Virus record (IMG/VR): IMGVR_UViG_3300032315_001656
Location: 1-29,760 of that record
DNA: 29,760 bases
Origin: a virus
Reading direction: 5' to 3' (one strand)
Shown: positions 14,779-29,408 of the stretch, piece by piece
Layout: every line of letters starts with the position of its first letter
How positions within the stretch are numbered: position 1 is the stretch's first letter
Notes under the pieces: model-generated
The model's database searches: none
Told to the model about the DNA's origin: nothing
The model's input: the letters and a program-made list of their open reading frames with translations, nothing else
Made by a program: the position numbers and the translations under genes

Positions 14779-14800
14779 AGACGGGGCCGAAGCCCCGTCT
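14779..14800 (-). terminator. UUCG-tetraloop hairpin between late genes
   Basis: Nine-base perfect arms around a TTCG loop closed by C-G when read on the minus strand: the very stable cUUCGg class. No T-run follows, so it may be a partial terminator or an mRNA end-stabiliser separating the abundant capsid/decoration messages from those of the connector genes. Confidence 0.6.
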
Positions 14801-21175: not shown

Positions 21176-21397
21176 TCAGGGGTGGGCGCAGTAGTGCGGC
21201 GAGCCGAGGCCGTTGAGCGACTTGCCGCACTTCAGGCAGTGGCCGAGCGCGCCGAGCAGGCTGGGCGGAGTGGGTGCGGGCGGGGTGTGGACTGGGCCGA
21301 CGCGGTCCACGGCGTCGCGGACGGTGGCCGGGTCGAACGTGCCGACGGCGCCGGCGAGGTAGCCGCGAATCCACCAGACGAACTGGTCCGCGGTCAT
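21176..21397 (-). CDS. Small phage protein with C-terminal zinc-ribbon-like motif
   Basis: A 73-residue protein. The ATG at 21397 is chosen for its ATGA overlap with the TerL stop. The N-terminal part (TADQFVWWIRGYLAG) is a motif found in many short phage proteins of unknown role. A Pro-rich linker follows, then CLKCGKSLNGLGSPHYC. The pair CxxC plus a distant Cys and nearby His could bind one zinc. It ends 9 bases before the ATG of the spike-base-like gene. Confidence 0.7.
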   Translation of the reverse strand: MTADQFVWWIRGYLAGAVGTFDPATVRDAVDRVGPVHTPPAPTPPSLLGALGHCLKCGKSLNGLGSPHYCAHP

Positions 21398-23103
21398 GCG
21401 CTCATGTGCCCGCCGCTGCTCGACAGGGCTCTCAGCCGGTCTTTCCATGACTTCACCACCTGTGCTCTGGGTTTCTGCGGCGGGGTCCGAGCGATAGCCA
21501 GATGTCCAACCCAGGCCAGGGAGTCGACGCAGTCGTCATGCACGCCGGCCGGGAACCTCAGCATCTCGGCGCGGACCACGTCGTACCACTCGCCGCTGTC
21601 CGAGAAACTGACCATGCCCTGCTGCATGCGCCCCTGGATCGCCCTGGCCCGAGCCATCTTGTCGGTGATCGGCGTCAGCACCTGGATCGACGGATACAGC
21701 TTCCGTTCGAGCATGCGCTTCTTCAGCACCGCGCTGATGGCCTTGTAGATCTGGCCGTCTTCAAACCCTAGAACTAGCGTCGGACTGTACCATTTCGACG
21801 CTAGATCCAAAATAGATTCCACGATGAAGAACGCGTCCTGGCTGCGGAACCGGACCACGTCCGCCACGTGCAGCACATCGTTCTCGTCCTGAAGCCCCAC
21901 AGTGCCGACCGTGTAGTCGTTCTGCTTCTTCTCGCTGATCGCAAAGTCCCAGGCGATCATCACGTTGGCCCGCTTCACGTGCGGCACCGGCCCGCGCCGG
22001 AACTGCTCCTTGTTGAAGTAGACGCCGTCGTCAGGGACAGGGTTCTGCTGGTACAGCGCGCTCCACCAGCGCCCGTCTGAGCCGTCGCTCTTGCGGTTCA
22101 GGGCCCTGATCTTGCTGAGCGCCTTGATCGGGTAGCGGCTGGGGTGCAGCGCCTCGCCCTTGCTGCGCAGCAGCGTGGCGCCGGGCGTGGGCGTGTTGTG
22201 GACGATCCGGTTCGTGACGGGGTCCAGGTACTCGTCCGACTCGGCGATGGCCGGGTACTTCACGACCTCGAACTTGTCGATGTCGTCGTCGTCCTCGCCG
22301 GCCGCCATCATCTGCTGGAGCCGGCCGGCCAGATCGTCGTCGTGCCACCACGTCTGGATCACCAGCACGCCTCCGCCGGGCGCCAGCCGCGTGTAGGCCG
22401 TCGAGAGATACCACTCCCAGATCTTCTCGCGGGCGTCGCCGCTGTCAGCCTCTTCGGCGTTCTTCACGGGGTCGTCGATCACCAGGACGTGCGCGCCCTT
22501 GCCGGTGATCGGCCCGCCGATGCCGGCCGCGACGTACCCGCCGCGCCTGCCGGCGATGGCCCACTCTTCCGTGCTCTGGTTGTTCTTGTCCAGGCTCACG
22601 TCGAACACCGTCTTGTAGAGGGTGTCGTCGATGATCTGCTTGACCTTGCGGCTGAAGCCCATCGCCAGGGACAAGTTGTACGAGCAGGCGATGAACTCGT
22701 GGTCCGGGAAGCGCCCCAGGTGCCACGCAGGGAAGTTCTTGGACGCCAGCTCGCTCTTGCCGTGCCGCGGGGGCATCAGCAGCATCAGCCGCGGGCTCTT
22801 GCCGGCCGCCACGTCGTCGCTGAAGCGCTCCAGGCGGGCGCAGATGTCCCGGTGGACCCAGCCGTCGTCGTAGCGGTCGTTCATCCGCTTGACGAACGGC
22901 AAGAAGCGGCGCCGCGCCAGGATGCGGCTGGCCATCTCGACCTGGGCGAGCTGCTTGGGGCGGCTCAGCGGCGGCAGAGGCCGGGCGAGGCTCGGATCTT
23001 GGGCCAGCGCCTGGGCAACCTGCTCTTCGCGGGTGCCCTGGAAGCGGCTGAGGTCGGGCTCAGACGGTGAGGTTAGCGTCGAGGATGCCGGCAGCTCGGG
23101 CAA
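21394..23103 (-). CDS. Terminase large subunit (packaging ATPase-nuclease)
   Basis: A motor ATPase that translocates and cuts DNA at the portal. Numbered from a TTG at 23103: Walker A PPRHGKSE at 111-118, Walker B VLVIDD near 206-211, coupling motif QTWWHDDD at 249-256, and a C-terminal nuclease with AWDFA (Asp about 385), LGFEDG (Glu about 446) and HDDCVDS (Asp about 522). The start is uncertain. The frame is open back to an ATG at 23493, but that part overlaps the 160-residue gene and lacks the G/C third-position bias. Bias is present between 23060 and 22935, ahead of the first later ATG (22935), so I favour the TTG at 23103 (GGAG just upstream). Codons near 21764-21826 are unusually AT-rich. 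Confidence 0.92.
   Translation of the reverse strand: MPELPASSTLTSPSEPDLSRFQGTREEQVAQALAQDPSLARPLPPLSRPKQLAQVEMASRILARRRFLPFVKRMNDRYDDGWVHRDICARLERFSDDVAAGKSPRLMLLMPPRHGKSELASKNFPAWHLGRFPDHEFIACSYNLSLAMGFSRKVKQIIDDTLYKTVFDVSLDKNNQSTEEWAIAGRRGGYVAAGIGGPITGKGAHVLVIDDPVKNAEEADSGDAREKIWEWYLSTAYTRLAPGGGVLVIQTWWHDDDLAGRLQQMMAAGEDDDDIDKFEVVKYPAIAESDEYLDPVTNRIVHNTPTPGATLLRSKGEALHPSRYPIKALSKIRALNRKSDGSDGRWWSALYQQNPVPDDGVYFNKEQFRRGPVPHVKRANVMIAWDFAISEKKQNDYTVGTVGLQDENDVLHVADVVRFRSQDAFFIVESILDLASKWYSPTLVLGFEDGQIYKAISAVLKKRMLERKLYPSIQVLTPITDKMARARAIQGRMQQGMVSFSDSGEWYDVVRAEMLRFPAGVHDDCVDSLAWVGHLAIARTPPQKPRAQVVKSWKDRLRALSSSGGHMSA
21802..21816 (-). promoter_or_regulatory. Motif-family site d, inside terL
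   Basis: Minus-strand TCTATTTTGGATCTA inside the coding frame of TerL (encoding residues near SILDL). With the flanking bases it matches site f at 16 of 17 positions (GGAWTCTATTTTGGATC). The surrounding 20 codons are atypically AT-ending, so the site may be kept for its DNA sequence. Confidence 0.4.
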
Positions 23104-23542
23104 CGACTCCGAGGTCGAACTTGGCCGGCTTGCGCGTGGCTTGCTCGGCGGCGGCTTTGGCGTGCCGGTCTGCGTCCGCACGGTCGCCGAAGCTCGGCCT
23201 CCAGCCCCTGAAGGCGTCGCGGACGGCTTGGGGGCTTTGGGGCCTGCCTTCTTTGCGGAAGCTGTACGAGATGCTGGCGCCTTTGATTTCGGCGACGCGC
23301 TCGTCGAAGGCTTGCCGGTAGGCTTTGCAGAAGGCTTCGCTGCTGCCGTTGGCGACGTAGCGGCGGAGTTCGGTGTTGCAGGGGTCTTGCGGGTCGATTT
23401 CGCCGCAGAGGGCTGCCTGGAAGTCGACGTACGACCGGCCGTAGCCGTCGAACTGACGGACGAGTGGGTCGAAGGGAGCTTCTTGGACGGCATCAGTCGC
23501 TGTCTCCGTCATCCCCGCTGTGTGCAAGCTGTTCGAGGTCAT
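23060..23542 (-). CDS. Unknown protein encoded between terS and terL
   Basis: A 160-residue protein. The ATG at 23542 (AAGG 9 bases upstream) gives a 50-base overlap with terS; the ATG at 23512 is the alternative. It is the real frame here: third positions are almost all C or G, unlike the overlapping long TerL-frame extension. Sequence features: DPLVRQFDGYGRSYVDF, three Cys within residues 45-80, and a C-terminal region with DRADADRHAKAAAEQATRKP then LGVVARAAGI, probably helical. No known domain is recognised. Its place in the terminase cassette suggests a packaging accessory, but that is guilt by association. Confidence 0.75.
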   Translation of the reverse strand: MTSNSLHTAGMTETATDAVQEAPFDPLVRQFDGYGRSYVDFQAALCGEIDPQDPCNTELRRYVANGSSEAFCKAYRQAFDERVAEIKGASISYSFRKEGRPQSPQAVRDAFRGWRPSFGDRADADRHAKAAAEQATRKPAKFDLGVVARAAGILDANLTV

Positions 23543-24685: not shown

Positions 24686-24798
24686 ATTTTTCTGGTGGCC
24701 GAGGGCGCGTGAGTCTCTTCTCCCTAGCTCTCCGAACGAAGGGGTGCCTTCGGATTCGGGTTCCGCTACGGGAGAAAAGGATGCTTATCTACCGCCCA

Positions 24799-24821
24799 GC
24801 CGCTCATCTTCGATGAGCGGC
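24799..24821 (+). terminator. Early-region hairpin 1 (triloop TTC)
   Basis: Ten-base perfect arms around TTC, followed by GTCG. It lies between the divergent junction and the first early gene. There is no T-run. It is the first of several similar hairpins in the early region, so it may be an attenuator or RNA-stabilising element rather than a classical terminator. Confidence 0.55.
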
Positions 24822-24866
24822 GTCGCGCTGCGTTGGTGTTCTCGTCACCCAACCAGGAGCTTGCTC

Positions 24867-25052
24867 ATGTCTTCCTTCTTCCGCTTCGCCCTCGCCGTGT
24901 CGCTCATGGCGTTCGGCACGTTCTGGCTGCTGTGCTTCGCAGCGCCTGCGCTGATCGGTGTGCCCGTCACGTGGGCCAACGCCCCGCTGCTCATCGTGAC
25001 GATCCCGACCTTCGGCGCATACGCCGCAGCGTTCTCGATCACGCGCTACTGA
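24867..25052 (+). CDS. Small membrane protein, two spans
   Basis: A 61-residue protein with AGGAG 7 bases before the ATG at 24867; the open frame extends upstream but has no ribosome site. Two hydrophobic segments, about residues 5-30 and 38-58, separated by a short VPVTWANAP turn, suggest an inner-membrane hairpin. No signature of a known family is seen. It is the first gene of the plus-strand early cassette and is followed by a hairpin. Small membrane proteins in this position often alter the host envelope or block superinfection; this is inference only. Confidence 0.75.
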   Translation: MSSFFRFALAVSLMAFGTFWLLCFAAPALIGVPVTWANAPLLIVTIPTFGAYAAAFSITRY

Positions 25053-25060
25053 TCCACCAA

Positions 25061-25084
25061 GAAGCCCAGCGTTCGCTGGGCTTC
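25061..25084 (+). terminator. Early-region hairpin 2
   Basis: An 11-base perfect stem with a two-base loop (or ten pairs with GTTC loop), then GTCGTTCCGCTCTCGTG. It lies 9 bases after the stop of the 61-residue gene and 46 bases before the next ATG. The tail resembles that of hairpin 3. Confidence 0.6.
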
Positions 25085-25130
25085 GTCGTTCCGCTCTCGT
25101 GTTCTTCAACTTCCTTTCAGGAGATTCACC

Positions 25131-25391
25131 ATGCGTACCACCAAGATCGAACTCGCCCAGGCCCTGCAAGCTCGCAACACCGAGCTGGAGGCCGCTCGTC
25201 TGCGCATCGCCGAACTGGAGGGCGACGTGCAAGCGCTCAAGGCGCAGCTCAGCCGCGCGCCGGCGCCCAAGCCCGTCTACGTGCGCCCGGTGCGCGAGGC
25301 CACGCCCGAGCAACTCGCCTACCGCGCAGCGTGTGCGGCAGCACGCGAGCTGGCCATGACCTCTGGCCGCTCGGTCAAGGTGGGCGCGTGA
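25131..25391 (+). CDS. Short coiled-coil protein
   Basis: An 86-residue protein with AGGAG 7 bases before the ATG. Residues 5-42 form a heptad-like coiled coil (IELAQALQARNTELEAAR then LRIAELEGDVQALKAQL). A Pro-rich linker (APAPKPVYVRPVRE) leads to a C-terminal helix (TPEQLAYRAACAAARELA). It is likely a dimer or an adaptor to another protein. It overlaps the next gene as GTGA. No family name can be given. Confidence 0.75.
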   Translation: MRTTKIELAQALQARNTELEAARLRIAELEGDVQALKAQLSRAPAPKPVYVRPVREATPEQLAYRAACAAARELAMTSGRSVKVGA

Positions 25392-25612
25392 ACCACGGCG
25401 CCTTCACCTGGGAGAACTACCGCCGCAGCGACGGCACGTTGGATGTCATCGCAGCGCTCGTCATCCGCGAGCCGCTCGATGCGCCCGCCCATCTGCGCCG
25501 CAAGGCGCGGGACTACCTCATGGAGCTGGAGGAACTCAGCTCCATGCGCAACTACGAGTCAGCCAGCCTCGCGCTGGCCCACGCCATGCTCATCGTTCGT
25601 AACGAACGGTGA
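25388..25612 (+). CDS. Small helical protein of unknown function
   Basis: A 74-residue protein with a GTG start at 25388 overlapping the previous stop (GTGA), and AAGGTG upstream. It is mostly helical: GTLDVIAALVIREPL, then HLRRKARDYLMELEELSSM and ALAHAMLIV. The final codons contain a palindromic CGTTCG/CGAACG sequence near 25594-25608. The function is unknown; it is translationally coupled with the coiled-coil gene. Confidence 0.7.
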   Translation: MNHGAFTWENYRRSDGTLDVIAALVIREPLDAPAHLRRKARDYLMELEELSSMRNYESASLALAHAMLIVRNER

Positions 25613-25620
25613 GTTGGTTC

Positions 25621-25643
25621 AAGGCCCGGGTTCCCCGGGCCTT
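25621..25643 (+). terminator. Early-region hairpin 3 (triloop TTC)
   Basis: Ten-base perfect arms (25621-25630 and 25634-25643) around TTC, then GTCGTTCTGCTCTTTTGCC. It has a modest T-rich stretch (CTCTTTTG), so it is the most terminator-like of the early hairpins. It begins 9 bases after the stop of the 74-residue gene. Confidence 0.65.
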
Positions 25644-25697
25644 GTCGTTCTGCTCTTTTGCCTTTCTGGCCCTTTGTCAACCTAACGGAGAATGTGT

Positions 25698-26171
25698 ATG
25701 TCCAAGTTCGCTCAAGCCAAGCCCGCCGCCAAGAAGACCATCGTCAAGCCCGCGGCGCCGCGTGCCCGCACCACGCACGTGGAGGTCGAAGACGTCGAGG
25801 TCGTCGGCCCCGAAGACGACGTGCAGAGCGCGTACCAACGCATCCGCGACGCGGCCGAGTCGCTGTTCGCTCGGCTGCACCGCCCCTCGTGGACGCGCAC
25901 GTTGATCAACGCCACCATCGGCTTGGTCAGCTACGCGTCCGTCTGGTACGGAAGCATGGTCCTGCTGGACATGCTGATGCTCGGCGTCGTGGCTTACACC
26001 GGCCTCGGCTTCATCTCGTTCCTCGTCGCCTTCCTCGGCGTGGTGCTGAGCTTCATGGCCGCGTTCAAGGCCGGGAAGCTGGCCTACGACTTGGCCGCCG
26101 CGTTCGAGTTCAGCAGCGTGAAGAGCCGCGTCACCGGCTGGTTCAGCTTCGGCAAGCCCGCGGCTGCGTGA
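25698..26171 (+). CDS. Membrane protein with basic N-terminus
   Basis: A 157-residue protein. The ATG at 25698 is chosen over 25692 because CGGAG then has a 7-base spacing. Residues 1-25 are Lys/Ala/Pro-rich, and 26-42 are acidic (HVEVEDVEVVGPEDD). A helix with basic patches (AESLFARLHRPSWTR) precedes two membrane spans near 69-90 and 92-122. The C-terminus (KSRVTGWFSFGKPAAA) is probably cytoplasmic. Family unknown. It overlaps the next frame as GTGA. It likely sits in the host inner membrane during early infection; the role is not known. Confidence 0.75.
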   Translation: MSKFAQAKPAAKKTIVKPAAPRARTTHVEVEDVEVVGPEDDVQSAYQRIRDAAESLFARLHRPSWTRTLINATIGLVSYASVWYGSMVLLDMLMLGVVAYTGLGFISFLVAFLGVVLSFMAAFKAGKLAYDLAAAFEFSSVKSRVTGWFSFGKPAAA

Positions 26172-26185
26172 TCGGGAGGCCGATC

Positions 26186-26467
26186 ATGATCGAGATGGGG
26201 ATCGTGGTCGGCATCGGCATCATCGTGATGCTGGCTCGTTTGAGCTGGCGTTCCAAGATGATGCTGTTGTCGAATCCACTTGTAGTGGACATCGCCGTGT
26301 TCGTGTTGCTCTCTGTGATGCACTGGGGAACCTTCTCTGGCCTCATGGTCGCAGCAGTCGGAGCTTTGTTCTGTTCAATCACACTGAGCATCGCTCGGTG
26401 GCTGTTCGGCTATGTCGCAAATGGAGCGTACAAACCGGGCGTCTTCAACGTGGGAGACAAGCTGTGA
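26186..26467 (+). CDS. Membrane protein, about three spans
   Basis: A 93-residue protein. The ATG at 26186 has GGGAGG 6 bases upstream; a GTG at 26168 (overlapping the previous stop) is in frame but less likely. Spans lie near 3-17, 30-52 and 54-73, followed by GYVANGAYKPGVFNVGDKL. The pattern SNPLVVDIAVFVLLSVMHWG, then TFSGLMVAAVGALFCSI, is one I recall from early regions of other Proteobacteria phages, but the function is not known. It overlaps the next gene as GTGA. Confidence 0.75.
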   Translation: MIEMGIVVGIGIIVMLARLSWRSKMMLLSNPLVVDIAVFVLLSVMHWGTFSGLMVAAVGALFCSITLSIARWLFGYVANGAYKPGVFNVGDKL

Positions 26468-26691
26468 GCCGTGGCCTCATGTCCCTCAACTTCCTGTTCC
26501 TCGACGGTGCGCGTGCCGTGCTCAGCGGCTCGCGTGTCACGCTCATCGTTCGGAACCAACCCGACCGCGAGATGGCCATCGACGAGCTGCCGCAGCCTCG
26601 CATCGACGAGCTGCTGTCCTACGGTGCGATCAAGCTGATCGCCAACCCGATGGAGGTCACATGCCCCGCGACTCGGGCTACCTCAGCATGA
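26464..26691 (+). CDS. Small early protein of unknown function
   Basis: A 75-residue protein with a GTG start at 26464 overlapping the previous stop (GTGA), preceded by GGAGA; an ATG at 26479 is the alternative. The core (SLNFLFLDGARAVLSGSRV then TLIVRNQPDREMAIDELP) looks like a small beta-alpha domain. Its C-terminus overlaps the next gene by 31 bases. No known motif is found. Confidence 0.65.
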   Translation: MSRGLMSLNFLFLDGARAVLSGSRVTLIVRNQPDREMAIDELPQPRIDELLSYGAIKLIANPMEVTCPATRATSA

Positions 26692-26864
26692 CGCTGGATG
26701 TGCAGGGCGTGGTCCGCTACGCCCAGCACCACCGTGACCCGGAACTCCTTCGGGCCACGTTCCCCGACCTCGATGATGAGCAAGCCTTTGCCATCGTCGA
26801 TGGTCTCGCCAGCTTGCAGGTCGTCAACCGCAAGCTCCAATTCACCCGAACCCAGGTGCATTGA
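26661..26864 (+). CDS. Small early protein of unknown function
   Basis: A 67-residue protein starting at the ATG at 26661, just after GGAGG (4-base spacing). It lies partly inside the end of the preceding gene. Helical segments: LDVQGVVRYAQHH, then PELLRATFPDLDDEQAFAIV and ASLQVVNRKLQF. The pattern could suit a small regulator or adaptor, but nothing in it identifies a family. Confidence 0.65.
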   Translation: MPRDSGYLSMTLDVQGVVRYAQHHRDPELLRATFPDLDDEQAFAIVDGLASLQVVNRKLQFTRTQVH

Positions 26865-26868
26865 AACC

Positions 26869-27060
26869 ATGGCCACACGGCTCACGTTCATGCCGGTCGA
26901 GGTCAGCATCTTCGACAGCTTGTCGGCAGCAATTGCCTACGAGCTGCATGCAGAGCTGCCCGACGAAACTTCGTGGGGCGCCGACCCCTTCGACATCCTC
27001 GCAGCCAAGGAGGAGGAAGCCGGCATGTCGCTCATCGACATGCCCGATGACGACGACTGA
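26869..27060 (+). CDS. Very acidic small protein
   Basis: A 63-residue protein; the ATG is 4 bases after the preceding stop, and the ribosome site is weak (AGG at longer distance), so coupling is likely. It has 16 Asp/Glu against three basic residues (Arg, Lys, His), ending IDMPDDDD. Such charge is found in phage DNA-mimic inhibitors of host nucleases or transcription, but also in many ordinary small proteins. No structural signature proves mimicry. A hairpin follows 5 bases after the stop. Confidence 0.65.
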   Translation: MATRLTFMPVEVSIFDSLSAAIAYELHAELPDETSWGADPFDILAAKEEEAGMSLIDMPDDDD

Positions 27061-27065
27061 TCGCT

Positions 27066-27088
27066 CTGGCCTGCGTTCCGCAGGCCAG
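27066..27088 (+). terminator. Early-region hairpin 4 (triloop TTC)
   Basis: Ten-base perfect arms (27066-27075 and 27079-27088) around TTC, then GTCGTGCTGCC. It follows the stop of the acidic protein by 5 bases. No T-run. Confidence 0.6.
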
Positions 27089-27130
27089 GTCGTGCTGCCT
27101 TCATGTGTTCAACCCTGAAGGATGAGGTTC

Positions 27131-27421
27131 ATGATGAACCTGACACCTACCGTTGTTTCCATGGAGCTTGTGGTCGTCGACTACAAGGTGCTGGCTGAGA
27201 TGAGCGATGGATCGCTCATCGAACTCAGCACACCGTGGGGGGCGCCACCCGAGCGCGACCTCACGAGCCACAGCATCATCGGGTGGCGGTTCAAGACCCG
27301 CGAACAGCTCATCGAGCTGGCTCGCCGCTTGAACAGCCAGCGTCGGGATGACGCGAACTATCGCCTGCACCTCGACAAAGTGCGGCGACTGGGCTGGGAC
27401 TACGCATCACGCGGGTACTAG
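27131..27421 (+). CDS. Small early protein of unknown function
   Basis: A 96-residue protein. ATG codons at 27122, 27131 and 27134 are in frame. AAGGATGAGG sits best for 27131 or 27134. The N-terminal half is a beta-rich domain (VVSMELVVVDYKVLAEMSDG, SLIELSTPWGAPP). The C-terminal half is a basic helix (TREQLIELARRLNSQR, RLHLDKVRRLG). It might bind nucleic acid, but no motif confirms this. It is the last gene before a long stretch without a clear gene; a hairpin begins 7 bases after the stop. Confidence 0.7.
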   Translation: MMNLTPTVVSMELVVVDYKVLAEMSDGSLIELSTPWGAPPERDLTSHSIIGWRFKTREQLIELARRLNSQRRDDANYRLHLDKVRRLGWDYASRGY

Positions 27422-27427
27422 CCCACA

Positions 27428-27456
27428 GCGGGTGAGGCGAACAACCCCTCACTCGC
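27428..27456 (+). terminator. Early-region hairpin 5
   Basis: A ten-pair stem with one G-T pair (27428-27437 with 27447-27456), a 9-base loop, then TTCGTAGTTTGG. It follows the 96-residue gene directly and probably ends the small-gene cassette. Confidence 0.6.
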
Positions 27457-27640
27457 TTCGTAGTTTGGTGGAGTCCACACAACCACCCGGTGTGTCTCGG
27501 CTTCAATGCCGTTTGCCTCTGCTTGCCGGTATCAAGCAGCGTGTCCGCGTTAGGTGCGGCTCGTGAACATCAGCACGCATCACGCGAGGGTTGCCTACTG
27601 CCCTAGCTGGAACACGTCACCAGCGCCACCAACAAGGAGA

Positions 27641-27664
27641 ATGATGATGACTCTGTGCGCGTAA
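27641..27664 (+). other. Seven-codon ORF with strong ribosome site
   Basis: ATGATGATG follows AAGGAGA directly and runs ACT CTG TGC GCG TAA. It may be a leader peptide or the remnant of a gene broken by a nonsense change. Confidence 0.35.
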
Positions 27665-27709
27665 GGAACATCGCGCCCTCCATTCCGGGTATCTGAACTT
27701 GAACCTCTC

Positions 27710-27865
27710 ATGGCGACGTTCAAGGGACAGCCGGACGCAGACATGCCGCACTACGTCGGAGCCTCTGCGTACCCTCAGACACCCGGCACTCATGGCTGGC
27801 CCACGTCACGGGTCGACATGCGTCACTTGGACGCTGGCTCGAACGAGACCTCGGTTCTCTACTAG
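27710..27865 (+). CDS. Possible 51-residue protein (weak)
   Basis: An ATG-to-TAG frame with about three quarters G/C at third positions: begins MATFKGQPDADMPHYVGASA and ends with NETSVLY. There is no Shine-Dalgarno site, and no known family. It is the only frame in the 27457-28011 stretch with coding-like bias. It could be real, or a remnant. Confidence 0.3.
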   Translation: MATFKGQPDADMPHYVGASAYPQTPGTHGWPTSRVDMRHLDAGSNETSVLY

Positions 27866-28011
27866 GCCACTTCACCATCACTCGCGCTCGATGACAGCGT
27901 TGCGCGATGTCCCGGCTGAGCTGCCGAGTTACCAACCCATCCGACCATCCGGAGTGCGTTGCATGCACTGGGGTATGGGCTCCACCACACGGGCCCGATT
28001 CGCTCTTTGTT

Positions 28012-28026
28012 TCTTACTTCGATCCA
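28012..28026 (+). promoter_or_regulatory. Motif-family site g ahead of the 354-residue gene
   Basis: Plus-strand TCTTACTTCGATCCA, 22 bases before the ATG at 28049. The core ACTTCGATC is identical to sites c and h. Confidence 0.5.
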
Positions 28027-28048
28027 ACTTCAACCCGAGGAAATCACC

Positions 28049-29113
28049 ATGCCCAAGACCCACACCGTCACCCCCGGCACCATGACCACGATGGCTGCCG
28101 CGTTCCAACAGGCCGAGCAGTTCATGGCCAACCAGCCGAACGACCTGCCGCCGGCCGACTCCGCACCGACCGACCTGCCCGTGGTCGTCGTGCAGCCCAG
28201 CGCCGGCGTGCAGATCGACGGCTTCCTCGACTTCATCGACCAGCTCGCCACCACGGCGCAAGCGCGGCGCTACGTGATGTGGTCTGCGGCGAACAGCCTC
28301 AACAACTACATCATCGCCAACCTCCAAACGCACATCCGCTCGGAGACGCGCCAGTCGCAGGAGGTCAACCAGGACGTCGAGTACCTCAGCTCGCTGGGTC
28401 TCGACCAGACCACCATCGACAGGTTCAACGAGCAGAAGGCTTTGATCGACGAGATGCGTGCCAACGGTGCCAACCTCGTCGAGCAGGGCTACGAGGCGCT
28501 CATCCCGCCCATCGAGACCGCAGAGCGCCTGGTCAACCTGCGCGGCTACGTCGCCGAGAAGATGAAGGCCACGGCCAAGACCGTGCGTGACCTCGCGCAG
28601 CCGATTAGCGACAGCATCGCCTACAGGCTGTCACGCACGCCGTCGGTCGACGAGGGCCTCGTCATGCGCTGGTTCATCGCCTGCGACGGCAAGGTGTCTG
28701 TCGACGAGCTGCGCCGCGTCGCCATGCGGCAGCAGCTCAGCGACCGTGCGCAACTGCTGGAGCAGTCCGGGCGCATCATCGACCTGGCCAAAGACCTCGC
28801 CTACAGGGGTGCGCCCAGCGACGCTGAGGTCGAGTCGCTGTTCGACGAGCTGCCGATCCACGTGCAGTACAAGCTGCTGGGCGGCATCGTGCGCACGCTC
28901 AACGTCGCCATGGAGAAGGAAGTCGCTGCCTTCATCCGGTTCAACCGCCTGGACAGCATCGCCAACCGCACGCTGATCCAGTCCGTGCTGAACGGCTACA
29001 TCGACGCGTTCGGCAAGTTCGGCAGCGCCAATGCCGACGCGCTGATCGCCTACGAAGAGCGCGGCAGCAAGCTGCCCACGCTGGAAGAGCTGCTGGCCGA
29101 CAAGTCGGTCTGA
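28049..29113 (+). CDS. 354-residue protein of unknown function
   Basis: The ATG at 28049 has AGGA 8 bases upstream. The open frame extends 30 codons further, through site g, and that part is rejected. Residues 1-45 are Pro/Thr-rich and probably disordered. The rest is almost wholly helical: GFLDFIDQLATTAQARRYVM, later EQKALIDEMRANGANLVEQG, a region MRWFIACDGKVSVDELRRVA, and a C-terminal helix (LPTLEELLADKSV). No catalytic motif is seen. It lies alone between two motif sites and ahead of the primase gene, so it is probably expressed early and strongly; the role is unknown. Confidence 0.8.
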   Translation: MPKTHTVTPGTMTTMAAAFQQAEQFMANQPNDLPPADSAPTDLPVVVVQPSAGVQIDGFLDFIDQLATTAQARRYVMWSAANSLNNYIIANLQTHIRSETRQSQEVNQDVEYLSSLGLDQTTIDRFNEQKALIDEMRANGANLVEQGYEALIPPIETAERLVNLRGYVAEKMKATAKTVRDLAQPISDSIAYRLSRTPSVDEGLVMRWFIACDGKVSVDELRRVAMRQQLSDRAQLLEQSGRIIDLAKDLAYRGAPSDAEVESLFDELPIHVQYKLLGGIVRTLNVAMEKEVAAFIRFNRLDSIANRTLIQSVLNGYIDAFGKFGSANADALIAYEERGSKLPTLEELLADKSV

Positions 29114-29122
29114 CGCAGGCAC

Positions 29123-29152
29123 GCCGCCCAGGCCCTCAGGGGTCTGGGCGGC
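29123..29152 (+). terminator. Hairpin after the 354-residue gene
   Basis: Nine-base perfect arms (29123-29131 and 29144-29152), followed by TTCC. It starts 9 bases after the stop. It probably ends or attenuates the 28049 transcript. Confidence 0.65.
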
Positions 29153-29257
29153 TTCCACGTGCGGGCCAGGACTGAACGGACTACGCGATTTCTAGCGCCG
29201 TGACTGAGCGGCTAAAAACGGCCCTTGGAATTGCGCTGTTCCAAACCTTTTACATAC

Positions 29258-29304
29258 TACTCTCTCTTCTATATCTCTTCTTTTTTCTTAGAGTAGAGAG
29301 AGTA
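29258..29304. repeat. Inverted repeat in AT-rich stretch
   Basis: Perfect 10-base arms (TACTCTCTCT and AGAGAGAGTA) separated by 27 bases, within strongly polypyrimidine and polypurine halves. Confidence 0.75.
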
Positions 29305-29322
29305 TAAGTATAAGAGTATAAG
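29301..29322. repeat. Short direct repeats AGTATAAG
   Basis: Two exact copies (29301-29308 and 29315-29322) with TATAAG between them, giving a small tandem array of TATAAG units. Confidence 0.7.
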
Positions 29323-29408
29323 AGTAGAGAGGTGTAGAGGGAAAGCTGCCACATTTTTGAGCACGTCCCTTGTGTTCTTCCTAGTGAAGGACGGCCTGCG
29401 GACCGTTT

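Follow-up and report, generated by a model that had tools for sequence, protein, structure and literature searches.

The window analysed here is a 29,760-base virus record (IMGVR_UViG_3300032315_001656), and its plus strand, which carries small early genes from 24867 onward, contains four short GC hairpins of one design. These four hairpins are copies of a single early-operon cassette, and we propose, with a probability of roughly 0.55, that they act as weak, promoterless intrinsic terminators or attenuators that are partly read through. The cassette represents a sequence-defined, family-wide regulatory element for a large group of phages of 60-70 kb that have hardly been studied, whose cultured members KPP25 and phiR18 allow it to be tested.

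A repeated hairpin cassette in the early region

The four hairpins and their tails lie at the following positions of the window (bp, base pairs; nt, nucleotides):

24799-24821, plus strand: hairpin 1, 10 bp, loop TTC; in the leader ahead of the first early gene (start 24867); covariance model E 1e-12, from a model that includes this hairpin
24822-24841, plus strand: tail 1, GTCGCGCTGCGTTGGTGTTC
25061-25084, plus strand: hairpin 2, read either as 11 bp around a TT loop or as 10 bp around GTTC; 8 nt past the stop codon at 25050-25052, with a gene at 25131 downstream
25085-25110, plus strand: tail 2, GTCGTTCCGCTCTCGTGTTCTTCAAC, which contains the second motif of the family
25620-25644, plus strand: hairpin 3, 11 bp, loop TTC; 7 nt past the stop codon at 25610-25612, with a gene at 25692/25698 downstream; highest terminator score of the four (d = 21)
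25644-25660, plus strand: tail 3, GTCGTTCTGCTCTTTTG
27066-27088, plus strand: hairpin 4, 10 bp, loop TTC; directly past the stop codon at 27058-27060, with a gene at 27131 downstream
27089-27112, plus strand: tail 4, GTCGTGCTGCCTTCATGTGTTCAA

All four stems are perfect and 10-11 bp long, with free energies (dG) of -17 to -22 kcal/mol and folding z-scores of -2.6 to -4.1. Perfect stems of at least 10 bp with loops of 2-9 occupy seven rows in the window (25061 being counted twice, once for each loop reading), where dinucleotide shuffles lead us to expect 0.87 and never gave more than 3. The tails share GTCG..C.GC, and their mean agreement over the first 12 bases is 8.83 of 12. This was matched by none of 20,000 random 12-mer quartets from the window, and by none of 4,000 when the register was left free. 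An earlier note on this DNA had described five hairpins of one design with agreeing tails. That description holds for four, in which both stems and tails exceed chance, and fails for the fifth. The note was also right, as far as the window goes, that most of the hairpins lack a proper T-run: the first eight tail bases hold 2, 3, 4 and 3 T at 24799, 25061, 25620 and 27066, respectively.

Two further early-strand hairpins lack the design:

27427-27457, plus strand: fifth hairpin, 11 pairs including one G-U, 9-nt loop CGAACAACC, tail TTCGTAGTTTGG; z -2.1; terminator score d = -9.2
29123-29152, plus strand: strong gene-end hairpin after the gene at 28049-29113, without the TTC/GTCG design and without a nearby start codon behind it; terminator score d = 31

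The hairpin at 27427 was rejected as a cassette member. Its loop and tail are different, no start codon lies close behind it, and the covariance model described below misses it at E values up to 10; it is perhaps an ordinary gene-end hairpin. Separately, a UUCG-loop hairpin (AGACGGGGCTTCGGCCCCGTCT) lies between late genes on the minus strand at 14779-14800, with a start codon about 29 bases further on and no GTCG tail.

The nearest cultured phages to the window are the Pseudomonas phages KPP25 and phiR18 (terminase identity 44-45%), which are podoviruses (PMC4859162). Among the related loci, L042 and L054 carry the TTC-loop hairpin with a GTCG-like tail in two and three copies respectively, the tails reading GTCTCTCTGCG in L042 and GTCGTTGTGCG in L054. 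Across nine aligned copies from these two loci and the window, 8 of the 10 stem pairs differ on both sides and 92% of cells are paired, compared with 32-46% in slid versions; the rows were picked as hairpins, so that pairing is partly built in. With that reservation, the compensatory arms reported earlier are confirmed in three phages.

A covariance model built from the nine copies (R1) finds exactly four matches in the window. Over 828 kb searched at E < 0.01, it finds further copies in L029, L038 and L026 (two each) and in L061, L053 and L045, all in the early region and on the early strand. In a search of seven loci, L029 was recovered at E 2e-9 and L026 at 4e-5, neither having been used in building the model. 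The whole 66-kb genome behind L054 yields three matches, all inside 0.8 kb of its early region. The earlier note had argued that structure and tail are both selected, and had named recurrence of the tail in relatives beforehand as one observation on which this would turn. The tail does recur in other phages (L042 and L054, and the copies found by the model in L029, L038, L026 and L061), which supports selection. The covariance search that the note proposed recovered the four window copies and relatives with this nine-copy model, and missed the fifth hairpin.

As a general viral motif, the GTCG tail was rejected. Exact-pattern scans of a viral collection returned 107 and more than 120 stretches, and a longer exact tail pattern had no matches in that collection. 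Because the covariance model scores loci from the scans no better than E 0.003, with scores at the tail-pattern matches themselves inflated by the chosen pattern, we tie the element to the terminase-related phage group. Rfam searches gave chance-level matches alone, distant from the hairpins.

The cassette can also be found without reference to its design, using only the succession of stop codon, hairpin, Shine-Dalgarno sequence and start codon. This search returns 60-77 cassettes according to the filter used, spread over about 37 genomes of terminase-related phages including KPP25. They are concentrated on the early strand (60 in 331 kb), while the same filter gives 4 in 479 kb of late strand, and those 4 are without the features and resemble coding sequence. 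Some of these automatic calls will be false, since the underlying gene calls follow simple rules.

Cassettes share a common anatomy. The stop codon is followed by the hairpin (median 7 nt on), a 7-nt U-rich tract, GC, a second U-rich stretch with TTGTGTTCTTCAA, a Shine-Dalgarno sequence and a start codon, with a median of 44 nt from hairpin end to start codon. In the window, the start codon lies 38-49 nt behind the hairpin in all four designed copies. The tails are pyrimidine-rich, as in TCTTTTTGCTTTTGTGTTC (L026), TCATTTCTGCTTTTGTGTTC (L073), GTCTCTCTGCGTTTGTGTTC (L042) and GTCGTTCCGCTCTCGTGTTC (window). On the transcribed strand, and there alone, T is most frequent at +5 to +7 and drops at +8/+9. 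Mean T content over +1 to +8 is 3.22 in cassettes, compared with 2.42 and 1.91 behind other hairpins (p 2e-7) and 2.56 for the same hairpins on the opposite strand. An unsupervised motif search that left out the Shine-Dalgarno part recovered TTGTGTTCTTCAA at about +12 (+10 to +14), with a log-likelihood of 118 against at most 42 in shuffles, and upstream of starts its core, TGTTCTTCAAC, occurs mostly behind hairpins. By a strict rule, at least 15 of 25 relatives have a cassette ahead of the first gene, and several more do by eye.

Loops differ from one group of genomes to another: AAAACC-like in L003-L005 and L018, AACCCC-like in L055, L061, L073 and part of L038, AGTA in L020 and L051, GA or AA in several, and TTC in the window. 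Loop and tail, and less tellingly the arms, are more similar within than between genomes (permutation p 0.001).

Proposed termination and read-through

Several observations argue for partial termination. Homologous copies in L029 (TCTTTTTGCG) and L026 (TCTTTTTGC) have a true U-run at the same tail position, with terminator scores of d = 30-33 by a d'Aubenton-Carafa-type formula, which was made for E. coli. On this score, 24 of 60 cassettes of relatives exceed zero; in the window, the hairpin at 25620 passes clearly with 21, and that at 25061 sits on the threshold at 0.0. In KPP25, plain terminators (hairpin-CTTTTTGTCG and hairpin-TTTTCCGCG) occupy similar boundaries. The earlier view that ordinary termination is doubtful is consequently not supported, given the U-runs in L029 and L026, the strand-specific U-enrichment and the passing score at 25620.

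A sigma-70 promoter scan, limited to that type, found no enrichment in the cassettes (6.32 versus 6.75 in shuffles, standard deviation 0.12; best window score 7/12). If cassettes carry no such promoter, transcription must partly run through them. Further, where a cassette stands in the leader, ahead of the first gene, its position is that of an attenuator, not of a gene end. We propose that RNA polymerase from the early promoter region would pause at the U-rich tract as each hairpin forms. Part of the complexes would stop and part continue, metering a share of transcription to each downstream gene or coupled gene group, while each upstream message would gain a stable hairpin end. Read-through may be regulated, perhaps with help from a trans factor or from the leader upstream. 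Termination itself, its strength and the regulation of read-through are all predicted here from sequence.

Other observations weigh against this interpretation. The hairpins at 24799 and 27066 are below the E. coli threshold, with just 2-3 T in 8, and so are 36 of the 60 cassettes of relatives. Four strong terminators in series without promoters would silence the genes downstream. Plain terminators need no conserved loop or tail, yet both are more similar within a genome than between genomes, and the TTC design occurs within the window only ahead of gene starts. The cassettes resemble intrinsic terminators and attenuators in having a GC stem of 10-12 bp and, across the family, about 7 U-rich nt directly after it on the transcribed strand; some homologous copies, indeed several, are textbook terminators. 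They differ in their interrupted U-tract (GUCGUUCUGC), their conserved loop and tail, the copy before the first gene, and their repetition through one operon. If they are plain weak terminators, they show that early genes can be metered without internal promoters, and they call for caution in judging the terminators of GC-rich phages by T-runs alone.

The comparison extends to other repeated phage elements. PeSL cassettes of T4-like phages, which join a stem-loop terminator to an early promoter, were reportedly described by Arbiol in 2010 and Comeau in 2014 and are cited in PMC4503421. They and our cassettes alike place a stem-loop between small genes of an early region that is gene-rich and changes fast. 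Ours differ in having no promoter by the sigma-70 scan, in belonging to another phage group and in the weak U-tract of the window copies. Extended Start Associated Sequences (ESAS) occur in Cluster K mycobacteriophages, with a consensus that differs between subclusters (PMC3203893), and intergenic inverted repeats are found in Clusters O and EG (PMC4351075, PMC7302621). Like these, the cassette has many copies per genome and places an inverted repeat right upstream of starts in the non-structural half of the genome. In those repeats the arms share a consensus or are invariant, whereas the cassette preserves its loop and tail and has arms that differ from copy to copy through compensatory changes.

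The conserved leader and other readings

Upstream of the first cassette lies a conserved element, overlapped at its end by a candidate open reading frame:

24710-24789, plus strand: leader element, TGAGTCTC ... TTCGGATTCGG ... AAAAGGATGCTTA, three motifs at near-constant spacing in about 24 relatives (for example L014, L013 and L042)
24781-24816, plus strand: candidate leader peptide MLIYRPAAHLR*, predicted from the reading frame only; it ends inside hairpin 1, and its ATG is not kept in relatives reading GGAGTCTC

These 80 bases separate the divergent late and early genes. In 24 aligned sequences, an AT-rich AAATTTTT stretch is followed by TGAGTCTC, TTCGGATTCG and AAGGAGTCTCTT/AAGGATGCTTA/GGGGACCCTA. 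RNAalifold finds no common secondary structure, and Rfam no match, for the leader. It may be a packaging or cos site, a promoter region or promoter-proximal DNA site, or a leader RNA.

The leader bears on the foremost alternative, which we regard as possible and clearly less probable than weak termination: the hairpins could be conditional terminators or antitermination sites, at which a factor of phage or host origin recognises the loop and tail particular to each genome and turns read-through on, the leader perhaps being put-like. In known systems, boxB and boxA serve N and Nus factors in this way. Agreement of loop and tail within a genome and their divergence between genomes is what a co-evolving reader would produce, and a strongly conserved leader ahead of the first cassette suits the same idea, although it has no common fold. 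The second motif adds to the resemblance. Its commonest core, TGTTCTTCAAC, is a single-base variant of TGTTCTTTAAC, the boxA core of betaproteobacterial rrn leaders, and the order of hairpin then boxA-like pyrimidine motif is that of rrn. In these features and in the conserved leader, the cassette is comparable to the rrn and lambdoid antitermination sites (boxB-boxA, nut) and HK022 put. However, the cassette motif departs from boxA at an invariant position, each operon holds many copies, and no known reader was found: a family search, in which the first early gene was compared with PHROGs only, recognised nothing N-like among the early proteins. The published boxA consensus is GYTCTTTAANA with an invariant T (PMC5725501), from which the window's GTTCTTCAACT departs at two positions. 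Because the family has C or T at that invariant T, many relatives deviating further, we do not file the motif as boxA.

A more elaborate form of this idea is somewhat less likely again. It would make the hairpins a per-phage code, with loop and tail fixed and arms free, through which a co-evolving reader opens a series of conditional terminators after being set up at the leader. This would be multi-site antitermination, unlike the single sites of nut or put. If a trans factor does read loop and tail, this would be a new way to run a long early operon past numerous stops, and the cassettes would supply on/off parts specific to each genome.

It is similarly unlikely that the hairpins are start-associated elements of the 5' untranslated region, insulating or stabilising the message while a pyrimidine-rich tail aids ribosome loading, with no termination at all. 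The design does stand ahead of starts in every window copy and is absent at 27427 and 29123, gene-end hairpins that no start codon closely follows, and the copy before the first gene in many relatives has no upstream gene to end. Yet the tails show no excess of openness for ribosome standby (unpaired fraction 0.495, versus 0.525 in shuffled tails), and this explanation leaves the U-runs of homologous copies unaccounted for.

RNA processing, with the hairpins as cleavage points dividing early messages, seems improbable. It would fit their early-only, intergenic placement and a structure preserved through compensatory change, but neither a bulge nor a shared cleavage motif was apparent, the tails resemble U-tracts, and perfect stems of 10-12 bp are short for RNase III substrates.

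Least credible of all are hairpin promoters for a phage RNA polymerase, as in phage N4. Start-associated hairpins with genome-specific loop and tail would suit them, as would the fact that KPP25 and phiR18 are podoviruses whose virion includes a very large protein (phrog_30152, 2249 positions). Against them, homologous copies have U-runs, and the sole T7/N4-type motif match in KPP25 lies within an early-strand open frame of 711 codons, which probably corresponds to the annotated DNA polymerase. Family A DNA polymerases share this motif. Motif, PDB and Pfam searches of KPP25 revealed no phage-encoded single-subunit RNA polymerase, the window's own genome being incomplete, and the large KPP25 virion protein (58634..550) had no PDB or Pfam match over the 1825 residues searched.

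The surrounding genome

Because phages with related terminases have genomes of up to 60-70 kb, the window is about half of a genome of its kind. Its minus strand carries packaging and virion genes (terminase at 21394-23493, portal, major head protein and head closure), and a gene that reads as HNH-like lies between this late block and the early genes. GC content is 66%, and no tRNAs were found in the window. Most of its early genes have few or no relatives among the fetched loci, whereas gp5 and gp11 have 39 and 34, in line with a hypervariable early region; a search for close relatives with two early proteins found none.

About 630 bases of the early region (27422-28048) contain no convincing gene. 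A gene-free stretch comparable in size and rough position occurs in KPP25 (L083, 7219-7896), where it holds near-identical direct repeats (CCCGCGTGGCACTAAGGCTCCAGC...). Further along the window, 29236-29340 is strikingly AT-rich despite the overall base composition, with polypyrimidine then polypurine sequence (CTCTCTCTTCTATATCTC.../AGAGTATAAG repeats). It lies about 110 bases ahead of a phrog_24712 gene, a family matched over its full length by a primase-like KPP25 protein, and one possibility is that this stretch is a replication origin.

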